Assembly: GCA_004356735.1 (NCBI GenBank)
Contig: SMWR01000148.1
Span: forward strand, 1 to 33,761
Reading direction: 5' to 3'
Length of the DNA: 33,761 nt
DNA from: Deltaproteobacteria bacterium
Lineage (GTDB): Bacteria; Myxococcota_A; UBA9160; SMWR01
The notes under the pieces: generated by a model
Database searches by the model: none
The model's input: the letters and a program-made list of their open reading frames with translations, nothing else
Told to the model about the DNA's origin: nothing
Part shown: in pieces, positions 28,142-32,544 of the stretch
Position numbering within the stretch: the first letter of the stretch is position 1
Layout: each line of letters begins with the position of its first letter
Position numbers and translations under genes: made by a program

Positions 28142-30565
28142 ATGACCACGAGCCCGTTCCAGGAGGCGCTCGATGCGGTGCGAAAGCCGCTGGCTTTTGC
28201 GGAGCGCGACGACTTCGCGGGACTCGATCGGGTGCGCGACCTGGCTACGACCGTGGCGGACGCGGCTCGACGCGCCGCCCGGTTGGCCATTCCCAAGGAC
28301 GCGTGCGATGGATTGCTTCGACTGGCCAAGCGGTTCGAGCAGCCGCTCGAAGGCGAGGACCTGCATCGGGAGATCTGCCGGACCCTGGAAGGACTGCGCA
28401 AGCTGGCGGACCCGGCCTGGAGCGAGGCGGCCCTGGCCCGCAGTCCGTCGGCCTTGCCCGGATTGGGACCGAAGCGGGCCGATAAACTGGCGCGGCGCGG
28501 TCTTGCCACGGTTGCCGACCTCTTGTTTCACTTGCCGGTTCGCTACGACGACCGCCGATCGCTTGTGCCCGTCGGCCAGCTCGAAGTCGGTCAGCACGTC
28601 ACTTTCGTTGCCAAGGTGCTGGTTTCGGACTTCGTCTCGCGTCGTGGTCGGCCGGATCGTTGGGGTCGGGCAGGCCGCATGTTCGAAGCCGTCGTCGGCG
28701 ATGGGACGGGTAGCGTGAACCTCAAGTGGTTCCACGCCAGCGATGCCATCGCTCGGCTCGTGAAGAAGGATGCCCGGCTGTTGATCACGGGTGACGTTAA
28801 GCGCTATCGCTTCAACAAGGAGATCGCTCATCCAGAGATCGAGCTTCTGCCGGACGAGGAAGCCGATTGCGAGAGCACGCCCGAATCCGTCCGGAGCATC
28901 GTCCCCGACTACGCCACTCCAGAAGGCATTCATCCCCGCGGACTGCGCCGCGCGATCCAGGCCGCGGTCGAGAGCTACGCGGATCTGGTTTCCGGACATC
29001 TGCCGCAGGCGTTGGTCCACAAGCGAGGGCTGCCGAAACCAGCGGACTCGCTGCGATTGCTTCACGCCCCGCCACTCGATACCGATCTCGATGCCGTTGT
29101 GGAAGGTCGCGACGGCGCGCGCACGCGCCTGGTCCTGGAAGAGCTCTACCTGCTCGAGCTCGGACTTGCGTTGCGACGCGAGTCGCGTGGGCGGGAAGCG
29201 GGCAACGCCATCGATGTGTCGGGTCCGCGGACGGCCAAGGCGTCGGTGAGTCTCCCGTTCCAGCTGACACGCGCCCAGCAACGTGCAGTTGCCGAGATCG
29301 TGGCGGACCTGTCGCGCGGACACCCCATGAATCGTCTGCTCGAGGGCGACGTCGGCAGCGGTAAGACCGTGGTGGCATTCCTGGCGGCGGTCGCCGTGAC
29401 CGAGAGCGGATTCCAGACCGCTTTGATGGCACCGACCGAGCTGCTGGCGGAGCAGCACTCACGCACCTTGAAGCGTCTGGTGCGTGGTGCGGGAGCCGCC
29501 GCTGCCCTGCGTGTCGAGCTCCTGACGTCGTCGGTTCCAAGGGCCGAAGCCGACGGGATCCGGGCCGAGCTCGCCGCGGGAGAGATCGATCTCGTGGTTG
29601 GAACGCATGCGCTGCTGCAGGAGTCCGTGGGTTTCCATCGCCTGGCATTCGTCGTGATCGATGAGCAACACCGCTTTGGAGTGCGCCAGCGCGCCGCCCT
29701 CGCCGCCAAGGCCGCCGATGGCAAGTCGCCCCACACTCTGGTCATGACGGCCACGCCGATTCCCCGGACCCTGGCGCTGACGGCCCATGGTGATCTCGAT
29801 CTCTCGATCCTGGACGAGCTTCCGCCCGGGCGGTTGCCCACCACGACGCTTCTCCTCCGAGACGGCGAAGGCGCTCGGGTGACCCGTCTGCTCAGGGAGA
29901 CGGTCGAGCGCGGCGAGCAGGTCTTCGTCGTCTATCCGCTGGTTGAGGAATCCGAGAAGACCGACCTGCGGGCGGCGAGCGAGTCCGCCGAGAAGATCCG
30001 CCGCGCGTTTCCGCAGGTGGCGGTGGATCTCGTCCACGGGAGAGTCGATTCGGCTGCGCGGGCCGAGGTCATGGCCCGTTTCGAGTCCGGCGAGACCGGG
30101 GTGCTGGTGTCGACTACGGTGATCGAAGTGGGCATCGATGTTCCCAACGCCACCCTGATGATCGTGGAGCACGCCGAACGCTTCGGCCTGGCCCAGCTTC
30201 ACCAGCTACGCGGCCGGGTCGGACGCGGTGAGAAGCCCGGCACCTGCGTGCTGGTCGCCCGTGGCTTTACCGAGGACAGCGAGGCCCGCATGCGCGCACT
30301 GATCGAGACCACGGACGGTTTCGAGATCGCTGAAGCCGACCTGCGGATCCGGGGACCGGGCGAGTTTCTGGGCACGCGTCAGCATGGATTCATGCCCGAC
30401 CTGCGAATCGCCGACCTGGTGCGCGACGTGGAGCATGTCGCCGTGGCTCGCGATGCAGCGCTTGGAACCGTTGGCCGAGATCCGGGATTGAACGCCGAGC
30501 CGACGCTGATGCGCGCAGTCCGCGCCCGTTGGGGCGAACGCCTGGATCTGGCGGGGGTCGGCTAG
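28142..30565 (+). CDS. recG: ATP-dependent DNA helicase RecG
   Basis: Wedge/OB domain, LLEGDVGSGKTVVAFLAAVAV, APTELLAEQHSRTLKRL, IDEQHRFGVRQRAAL, MTATPIPRTLALTAHGDLDLSILDELPPGR; long N-terminal region before LPGLGPKRADKLARRG; exact start uncertain (track start 28064). Confidence 0.94.
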   Translation: MTTSPFQEALDAVRKPLAFAERDDFAGLDRVRDLATTVADAARRAARLAIPKDACDGLLRLAKRFEQPLEGEDLHREICRTLEGLRKLADPAWSEAALARSPSALPGLGPKRADKLARRGLATVADLLFHLPVRYDDRRSLVPVGQLEVGQHVTFVAKVLVSDFVSRRGRPDRWGRAGRMFEAVVGDGTGSVNLKWFHASDAIARLVKKDARLLITGDVKRYRFNKEIAHPEIELLPDEEADCESTPESVRSIVPDYATPEGIHPRGLRRAIQAAVESYADLVSGHLPQALVHKRGLPKPADSLRLLHAPPLDTDLDAVVEGRDGARTRLVLEELYLLELGLALRRESRGREAGNAIDVSGPRTAKASVSLPFQLTRAQQRAVAEIVADLSRGHPMNRLLEGDVGSGKTVVAFLAAVAVTESGFQTALMAPTELLAEQHSRTLKRLVRGAGAAAALRVELLTSSVPRAEADGIRAELAAGEIDLVVGTHALLQESVGFHRLAFVVIDEQHRFGVRQRAALAAKAADGKSPHTLVMTATPIPRTLALTAHGDLDLSILDELPPGRLPTTTLLLRDGEGARVTRLLRETVERGEQVFVVYPLVEESEKTDLRAASESAEKIRRAFPQVAVDLVHGRVDSAARAEVMARFESGETGVLVSTTVIEVGIDVPNATLMIVEHAERFGLAQLHQLRGRVGRGEKPGTCVLVARGFTEDSEARMRALIETTDGFEIAEADLRIRGPGEFLGTRQHGFMPDLRIADLVRDVEHVAVARDAALGTVGRDPGLNAEPTLMRAVRARWGERLDLAGVG

Positions 30566-31017
30566 CGCTCGGCGATCCGCGTCGTCTGGGCGACGGCGCA
30601 CAGACGATCACCGACGAGGGAGCGCACCTCGACGAAGTGTGTACGGCCGGTCCGGTTGAGGATCTCGCCCTGCATCTCGAACTCGGGGCCTGTGATCGGG
30701 GCGAGGTCGTCGACTCGCAGATTCGCCGTCTGCTGCCAGCGCAGCTGCTCCGAGTCGTCGCAGACCGTGCGGACCACGTGGAGTGCGAAGCAGTCGACGT
30801 AGGTCGGCATGAATCCCCCAAAAAGATCGCCGCGTGGATGCATCACGCGCCGGGGCAGACGGGCCCGAACCCGCCTCTTTCCGGGTTCGCGCTCGAGCAC
30901 CTTCCAAGCGTGGGCCTCCAGGAAGTCGCCGATCGGATGCCCCTTGCCGGCTAGGCGCCGAGGGTTCTGGGTCCTCCAGAGGCGCAGGGCGTCTTCCGCG
31001 GTCTGGGGGCTCGTCAT
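30562..31017 (-). CDS. PaaI/hotdog-fold thioesterase-like protein
   Basis: HPRGDLFGGFMPTYVDCFALHVVRTV...QTANLRVDDLAPITGPEFEMQGEILNRTGRTHFVEVRSLV; start at MTSPQTAED with upstream ggagg SD. Confidence 0.72.
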   Translation of the reverse strand: MTSPQTAEDALRLWRTQNPRRLAGKGHPIGDFLEAHAWKVLEREPGKRRVRARLPRRVMHPRGDLFGGFMPTYVDCFALHVVRTVCDDSEQLRWQQTANLRVDDLAPITGPEFEMQGEILNRTGRTHFVEVRSLVGDRLCAVAQTTRIAER

Positions 31018-31094
31018 TTCCCCCGTCTCCTCCCGCAAGAAGCGAGCTTAGGCGAGAATTCTCAAGGCCGTCGACGCCCGGCCGATGGGTTCGC

Positions 31095-31123
31095 TTGACG
31101 CGGCTGGGGGCTTCGTCTACACA
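31095..31123 (+). promoter_or_regulatory. Sigma70-like promoter candidate for the leuA leader
   Basis: TTGACG (31095-31100), N17, TACACA (31118-31123); would place the TSS within a few nt of the leader ATG (31133). Confidence 0.35.
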
Positions 31124-31132
31124 GGAATCTCA

Positions 31133-31216
31133 ATGGTGAATCGGACTCGGACGTTCGTGGACCTTCTCGGCGCTCTGCTTCTTAGCAGGGCGGGAGAGGG
31201 TTCCTGCGGCCACTAG
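31133..31216 (+). CDS. Putative leucine leader peptide (27 aa) upstream of leuA
   Basis: MVNRTRTFVDLLGALLLSRAGEGSCGH*; Leu codons CTT CTC GGC GCT CTG CTT CTT (5 Leu in 7 codons); AGGA 7 nt upstream of ATG. Confidence 0.72.
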   Translation: MVNRTRTFVDLLGALLLSRAGEGSCGH

Positions 31217-31279
31217 TCGATCCGCCCAGACAACAACCCTCTCTCGCCGTACCGGTCGCGGTCGCGGTTGGAGAGGGTT
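31172..31279 (+). promoter_or_regulatory. Attenuator-like region with alternative stems 1:2, 2:3 and 3:4
   Basis: 1:2 GCTCTGC(31172-31178)/GCAGGGC(31185-31191); 2:3 GGCGGGAGAGGGTT(31189-31202)/AACCCTCTCTCGCC(31235-31248); 3:4 AACCCTCTCT(31235-31244)/GGAGAGGGTT(31270-31279). Confidence 0.72.
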
Positions 31280-31337
31280 TCGTGCATCTGAGTCCCGAAC
31301 AGGGACTCGAACCAGAGCACCGTTCGCCTCGAAGCCT

Positions 31338-31364
31338 CGCTCCGGCCGGTCCGGCCAAGGAGCG
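31338..31364 (+). promoter_or_regulatory. Hairpin sequestering the leuA Shine-Dalgarno
   Basis: CGCTCC-GGCC-GGTCC-GGCC-AA-GGAGCG; AAGGAG SD (31357-31362) lies in the 3' arm, ATG at 31369. Confidence 0.65.
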
Positions 31365-31368
31365 AATC

Positions 31369-32544
31369 ATGTCCGACAAGATCATCGTCTTCGATACGAC
31401 CCTGCGCGACGGGGAGCAGGCGGCCGGCGTCTGCTTCTCCGAGCGCGACAAGCTGGAGATCGCGTTGCAGCTCGAGGCGATGAACGTCGACGTGATCGAA
31501 GCGGGCTTCCCGGCCGCCTCGCGTGTCGAAGCCTGCAACGTCGCGGCCGTCGCCCGCCAGGTCCGCACGGCCTCGATCTGTGCACTCTCTCGGGCTGTGC
31601 CCGGCGACGTGGATGCCGCGGCCGCCGCCCTCGAAGGCGCCAGCCGGCCCCGCATCCACGTCTTCGTCAACTGCAGCGACGTGCAGCTGGCCCAGCAGCT
31701 CGGCAAGGACCGGGACGAAGTGCTGGGCATGGCGGCGTTCGCGGTCCGCCGTGCGCGCAAATACACCGATGACGTCGAGTTCAGTCCGATGGACGCGACC
31801 CGGGCCGATCCGGTGTTCGTGGCCCAGATCGTGCGCGTCGCCCTGGCCGCCGGCGCCCGCACCATCAACATCCCGGACACCGTCGGCTACATCCTGCCCG
31901 ACCGCCTGGCCGCACTGTTCCGGGATCTCCAGCAGCGCGTCCCCGAGCTGGAAGAGGCCATCCTCTCGTTTCATGGTCAGGACGACCTGGGCCTGGCTAC
32001 GGCCAATGCCCTGGCCGCAGTCTTGAGCGGCGTGCGCCAGGTCGAACTCGCCGTGAACGGCATTGGCGAACGCGCGGGCAATACGGCCTTCGAGGAGGTT
32101 GTGATGGCCATCCAGGTCCACGGGGAATCTCTGGGCGTCCATACGAACGTCGATCCCTCGGGCATTACTGCGATCTCGAGACTGGTGGAAGAGCGCAGCG
32201 GCATGGCCGTCCCGCGCAACAAGGCCATCGTCGGTGCCAACGCCTTCCGCCACGCCTCGGGCATCCACCAGGACGGCGTCCTCAAGTTCCGGGGCAACTA
32301 CGAGGTGATCGACCCGGCCGTGATCGGTCACACCACCGGTACCGAGATCGTGCTGGGCAAGCTGTCGGGTCGGGCGGGCTTCGTGTCCCGAATCCGGGCG
32401 CTCGGGATCGTGCTCCCCGAGGGCGGTCTCGACCGTGCCTTCGACCGCTTCCAGGAAGTCGCCAACCATCGCCCCCAGGTCGACGACGAGGACCTCCGCG
32501 AGATCTGCGATATGGCGCAGTCTGGATGCGTCTCCGATGCGTGA
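31369..32544 (+). CDS. leuA: 2-isopropylmalate synthase-like protein, short form lacking the C-terminal regulatory domain
   Basis: KIIVFDTTLRDGEQAAGVCFSERDKLEIALQLEAMNVDVIEAGFP...DDVEFSPMDATRADP...GARTINIPDTVGY...SFHGQDDLGLATAN...NGIGERAGN...ASGIHQDGVLK; 391 aa. Confidence 0.88.
   Translation: MSDKIIVFDTTLRDGEQAAGVCFSERDKLEIALQLEAMNVDVIEAGFPAASRVEACNVAAVARQVRTASICALSRAVPGDVDAAAAALEGASRPRIHVFVNCSDVQLAQQLGKDRDEVLGMAAFAVRRARKYTDDVEFSPMDATRADPVFVAQIVRVALAAGARTINIPDTVGYILPDRLAALFRDLQQRVPELEEAILSFHGQDDLGLATANALAAVLSGVRQVELAVNGIGERAGNTAFEEVVMAIQVHGESLGVHTNVDPSGITAISRLVEERSGMAVPRNKAIVGANAFRHASGIHQDGVLKFRGNYEVIDPAVIGHTTGTEIVLGKLSGRAGFVSRIRALGIVLPEGGLDRAFDRFQEVANHRPQVDDEDLREICDMAQSGCVSDA

Follow-up and report, generated by a model that had tools for sequence, protein, structure and literature searches.

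A candidate leucine attenuator family of classical logic upstream of isopropylmalate synthase genes in a class of uncultured bacteria

Leader elements resembling the one described here have been reported from several bacterial groups. The leuL element of E. coli and Salmonella (Rfam Leu_leader) features a Leu-codon leader peptide and alternative antiterminator and terminator stems upstream of leuA, and the sensitivity of such attenuators is set by codon choice, the rare CUA codon having been discussed for the enterobacterial leader (PMC1183508). In the alphaproteobacterium Sinorhizobium meliloti, the transcript of trpL (rnTrpL), which senses tryptophan and controls trpE(G), begins with the AUG of the leader ORF (PMC7298713). 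The actinobacterial LEU element is a pseudoknot that involves the Leu codons and the leuA Shine-Dalgarno box (PMC1262725). No earlier work on attenuators in Deltaproteobacteria or Myxococcus was found in the open-access literature.

The locus presented here lies in a window of 33,761 nt, the whole stretch of DNA that was analysed, and it resembles leuL in its leader peptide, its stems and its position. It differs from the enterobacterial leader in being predicted leaderless, with arm 2 of the RNA inside the ORF, in using CTT, CTC and CTG codons, and in apparently controlling either a LeuA without the allosteric domain or a PRK03739-type 2-isopropylmalate synthase (IPMS). It is like rnTrpL in the predicted start of its transcript at the leader AUG, and it differs from the LEU element in conserving a terminator/antiterminator pair that leaves the Shine-Dalgarno site uninvolved. 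No Rfam family matched the window at gathering score, and the leader region returned only an unrelated sRNA at an E value of 7.2. A scan with Leu-leader models had been proposed as a check along with the original prediction of an attenuator at this locus; no Leu_leader match was obtained even at an E value of 10, and ten related loci gave only sub-threshold matches to unrelated families. Judged from its sequence, the element belongs to a new attenuator family of classical logic that is absent from Rfam.

The leader ORF and its competing RNA stems

The gene behind the leader (31369-32544, forward strand) encodes a short IPMS of 391 aa that lacks the LeuA allosteric domain. Pfam finds HMGL-like and HCS_D2 only and no LeuA_dimer, and the best NCBIfam match, a PRK00915-type IPMS, is below the curated cut-off and aligns over the first 382 of 516 positions. 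Upstream of this gene, a predicted leaderless ORF of 27 codons (31133-31216, forward strand) encodes MVNRTRTFVDLLGALLLSRAGEGSCGH, with the coordinates and letters that were originally given. Its five Leu codons are codons 11, 12, 15, 16, and 17, and its TAG stop codon (31214-31216, forward strand) stands just beyond arm 2. Among the 202 short ATG ORFs of 15-45 codons that the window contains, 2 reach a density of 5 Leu in 7 codons; the run by itself is uncommon and not decisive, and it is conservation that is decisive.

A predicted promoter (31095-31123, forward strand) precedes the ORF, with TTGACG at 31095-31100, a 17-nt spacer and TACACA at 31118-31123, while a generic scan called neither a canonical promoter nor a canonical terminator at the window leader. 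The assignment is based on conserved spacing: in 62 of 64 leaders an in-frame start codon follows TTGAC at a distance of 35-41 nt, with a mode of 38 that leans on the choice to seek start codons 32-45 nt downstream of TTGAC with 37 preferred. At standard sigma-70 spacing, transcription usually starts 6-8 nt from the -10 box. With this distance and the 17-nt spacer, the transcript would begin within a few bases of the start codon, probably near 31130, which is 0-3 nt ahead of the leader ATG. The near absence of a 5′ leader, which had been remarked upon as an unusual point, is thereby seen as a conserved predicted feature of the family, and the leader ORF is predicted to have little or no untranslated sequence ahead of it. 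Adjoining the promoter is a divergent ORF of 158 aa (30562-31038, minus strand) with no Pfam or NCBIfam match.

The three downstream arms, all on the forward strand, carry exactly the letters originally reported: arm 2 (GGCGGGAGAGGGTT, 31189-31202), which also codes for R-A-G-E-G in the peptide and pairs with arm 3; arm 3 (AACCCTCTCTCGCC, 31235-31248), which can pair with arm 2 or with arm 4; and arm 4 (GGAGAGGGTT, 31270-31279), which forms with arm 3 the putative terminator hairpin at 31235-31279. The 1:2 hairpin, first placed at 31172-31191, is present but larger than described, with the minimum-energy fold pairing about 31159-31203. Arm 1 (31159-31183, forward strand, from a fold of 31155-31205) accordingly includes the Leu control codons at 31163-31168 and 31175-31183, so that the arm holds all or nearly all five. 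Arm 4 was correctly recognized as a near-copy of arm 2, a resemblance to be expected because both must pair with arm 3. In isolation the stems have nearly equal energies, at -32.1 (1:2), -32.6 (2:3), and -31.4 kcal/mol (3:4). The 211-nt region folds better than 200 of 200 dinucleotide shuffles (z -5.4), and none of 2000 dinucleotide shuffles of 31133-31289 contained a 14-bp 2:3 stem whose arm 3 also pairs over 10 bp downstream. With a ribosome on the Leu codons, the stretch that stays uncovered folds as 2:3 as long as arm 4 has not been made. After arm 4 has been synthesized, free folding of the stalled state favours 3:4, which counts against the attenuator model and means that the switch must act kinetically.

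The 3:4 stem had been described as lacking a clear U-tract, and the window tail, GGGUUUCGUGCAUCU, is indeed weak; this is partly peculiar to the window copy, however, since most relatives have a T-rich tail. The interrupted tail (31278-31289 in the window, forward strand) was recognized from the composition of the family, in which the 12-nt tail of 64 relatives contains 6.3 T on average, the background being 16%. The stem of the terminator also runs outward 5-14 pairs past the CCC/GGG core in many relatives, with compensatory changes among pairs such as CGCGAAA/UUUCGCG, CGCCAAA/UUUGGCG, and CCGCAAAG/CUUUGCGG, whereas the window copy extends by two A-U pairs only. As a candidate intrinsic terminator, the 3:4 stem is therefore represented in the family by a strong covarying hairpin with an interrupted T-rich tail, and in the window by a copy with a weak tail and a negative generic scan. 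Between the terminator and leuA lies a further perfect 7-bp hairpin, GAGTCCC-GAACA-GGGACTC (31290-31308), which is not evident in relatives. On the minus strand near 31300, a GGTTCGAGTCCC-like string hinted at a tRNA arm, but ARAGORN found no tRNA.

Conservation and covariation among relatives

Absence of the leader and stems from relatives had been named as evidence that would tell against the original prediction; the opposite was found: dozens of genomes share the Leu-rich leader, the three downstream arms and the spacing of the promoter. The short LeuA is present at 62-76% identity in 22 of 60 relatives, and a Leu-rich leader with the same arms precedes those orthologs whose upstream DNA was readable and inspected (the upstream DNA of G017 is masked by N, and that of G036, truncated at a contig end, retains its terminator hairpin). 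A covariance model built from 21 leaders of short-LeuA orthologs matches in 75 of the 91 genomes of the class, and where the flanks were read, most strong matches have Leu-rich leaders, ranging from MALHRSRLLLLGLLLLGAGGDVARR to MDPQRANFRPSLGLLPGLLLSGAGEG. Outside the class but within the same phylum, two genomes (G302 and G313) were accepted, each with a Leu leader before a short LeuA; weak matches elsewhere in the phylum were mostly not counted as members, and reverse-strand matches at the same places, which reflect the palindromic hairpin, were discarded.

Four matches (L205, L210, L212, L222) cover the terminator half only, with at least one located shortly after a gene end, and it may be that terminators at gene ends in these genomes have this stem and T-rich tail as well. 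Such matches raised the possibility of a genome-wide terminator repeat, which was rejected, as the exact terminator pattern occurs only at these attenuators in the 61 genomes searched.

Covariation was examined in 64 elements aligned with structure-blind MAFFT, and it was found in both of the mutually exclusive stems that share arm 3. The 2:3 antiterminator is paired in 88.2% of cells, with double changes in 7 of 14 pairs and 47 double-change cells against 18.8 in shuffles, its count and covariation score exceeding all 500 shuffles (0/500), which leave the relatedness of the sequences in place. In the 3:4 terminator core, pairing reaches 97.2% of cells, and the 41 double-change cells compare with 12.0 in shuffles of the same kind (0/500); its covariation score is also above every shuffle. 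Sliding the partner columns by 1-3 positions lowers the paired cells and the covariation score of both stems.

Leu is found at codons -5, -4, and -3 before arm 2 in 60, 58, and 64 of 64 leaders, respectively, and the regulated genes encode IPMS, so that the codon run corresponds to the amino acid made by the pathway. The other two frames have no comparable Leu run; the single position in frame +1 that reaches 50 owes its count to the same CTT letters. Relative to the end of arm 2, the stop codon of all 64 leaders starts at -6 to +18 nt, mostly at 0-15, which implies that arm 2 is translated and that a terminating ribosome would mask it. Codon usage is skewed: CTT accounts for 8.8% of Leu codons in the downstream genes and for 32.5% in the leaders (Fisher p 1e-34). 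In 63 of 64 leaders, CTT is the final Leu codon ahead of arm 2 (31181-31183 in the window).

Proposed mechanism and rival explanations

Taken together, conservation and covariation support the 1:2 / 2:3 / 3:4 logic that was first proposed, and the element is very probably a ribosome-mediated transcription attenuator that senses charged leucyl-tRNA, with the response to leucine being predicted. The ORF, its Leu run, the promoter spacing, the placement of the stop codon, the covarying alternative stems and the link to IPMS genes can all be read from the sequences themselves. In the proposed mechanism, RNA polymerase would start at or a few bases from the leader AUG, so that a ribosome would load straight onto the transcript's 5′ end. 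Under leucine shortage, the ribosome would stall on the CUU/CUC/CUG run and cover arm 1, leaving arm 2 free to pair with arm 3 before arm 4 is made, and transcription would continue into the IPMS gene. When leucine is plentiful, the ribosome would reach the stop codon at or just past arm 2 and mask this arm, so that arm 3 would pair with arm 4 and transcription would stop. With no ribosome, 1:2 and 3:4 would form, leading to termination as well. From these features we infer the start of transcription, the translation of the leader, the efficiency of termination and the response to leucine.

Other explanations for the conserved leader were weighed against attenuation. One rival reading is that the leader folds control how accessible the leuA ribosome-binding site is, a mechanism put forward for the LEU element of actinobacterial leaders, in which Leu codons of the run pair with the leuA Shine-Dalgarno box (PMC1262725). 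At this locus, however, about 80 nt separate the end of arm 4 from the leuA AGGAG (about 31357-31361), and that site takes part in no conserved stem; the features that are conserved are a GC-rich hairpin and, behind it, a T-rich tail. The conserved pairs are accounted for by arms 2, 3, and 4, none of them reaching 31357-31361, as judged by position only in alignments that end before this site, and we consider translational control to be quite improbable. A similar-looking leuA leader in S. coelicolor did not behave as a classical attenuator when mutated, as far as it is cited in PMC1262725, and this counts against the attenuator reading.

It is less probable still that the ORF is a functional small-protein gene with the hairpins merely serving as its terminator. 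The peptide tail LLLxRAGEG is conserved, and some attenuator peptides act in trans, such as peTrpL of S. meliloti (PMC7298713), but the conserved RAGEG is coded by arm 2 and is explained by the covariation of arm 2 with arm 3, and the N-terminal half of the peptide is poorly conserved. Furthermore, the Leu run recurs before leucine-pathway genes, while a sibling element before an MFS gene has Trp codons. Finally, the equally Leu-rich short ORFs in the window might suggest a fortuitous Leu-rich ORF and repeats in a GC-rich region, an explanation that is scarcely credible given conservation in dozens of genomes with covariation and a geometry that no shuffle reproduced; the comparative data already refute it. 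Attenuation remains the preferred reading in what follows.

Exchange of the regulated enzyme and a Trp-codon sibling

Wherever the gene behind a Leu-type match was read, it proved to encode an IPMS, and two kinds are found: the short LeuA, as in the window, and a PRK03739/leuA_yeast-type enzyme of roughly 550-630 aa that has the allosteric domain and about 25-29% identity to LeuA. A canonical LeuA is also present in most genomes of the class, and the attenuator is absent before those canonical full-length leuA genes whose upstream DNA was read. The same is true of the window genome, where a second LeuA, 49% identical and with a longer frame, has no leader in its readable upstream DNA.

The two attenuator-linked enzymes appear to exclude one another. 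The short LeuA is found in 29 and the PRK03739-type IPMS in 49 of the 91 class genomes, with both together in 0 (Fisher p 5e-14, relatedness ignored). Both kinds are present inside each of five families (f1, f4, f5, f8, f12), which indicates that several changes were needed. In both settings the end of recG lies directly upstream of the leader, which is followed by the short LeuA in the window and at L009, L012, L013, L020, L023-L025 and L161, and by the long PRK03739-type IPMS at L166, L170, L172, L173, L179, L182, L184, L187, L189, L190, L194, L199, L202, L208 and L213. With mutually exclusive enzymes and recG upstream in both cases, the most economical interpretation is an exchange of the enzyme gene in place, under a switch that persisted, and these observations suggest such an exchange. 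An alternative possibility is differential loss from an ancestor that had both kinds of IPMS.

Other matches to the covariance model precede an MFS transporter gene and have leaders with Trp codons just before arm 2, such as MLARFEWTWLVVLASKPEVGVGSLGR and one that ends in TALQTAWTVWKWKVGGGAPGR; their terminator hardly differs from that of the leucine element. These Trp-type leaders stand before orthologs of the transporter in about a dozen genomes, several with similar TTGAC spacing (genes at L181, L183, L185, L198, L204, and also at L227-L230, L232-L235, L242, L245 and L249-L252, many with a near-identical terminator). The element is a candidate tryptophan attenuator, and the transporter is, by inference, a candidate for tryptophan-related transport. 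In one genome (G021, contig C50; L013/L240), the short leuA is immediately followed on its own strand by the MFS transporter gene, and both may be under the leucine attenuator.

A broader reading, which we advance tentatively and hold to be slightly short of probable, is that the attenuator is a resident cassette that outlives its gene. A recG-linked leaderless leucine switch would have been kept while its target was swapped repeatedly, within families, between two distant IPMS enzymes, and a copy changed from Leu to Trp codons would have been redeployed before an MFS transporter, which would then be tryptophan-related.

The finding adds an uncatalogued attenuator family, as predicted here, to uncultured bacteria that form a group at class level and are listed in public records as Deltaproteobacteria or Myxococcales. 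It predicts which IPMS of these genomes is leucine-controlled, and the Trp-codon sibling gives an unannotated MFS transporter a testable function. The putative Leu/Trp pair on one RNA scaffold is a natural one that would allow the role of codon identity in specificity to be tested. Ultimately, the locus points to a regulatory RNA that stays in place while the enzyme behind it changes.
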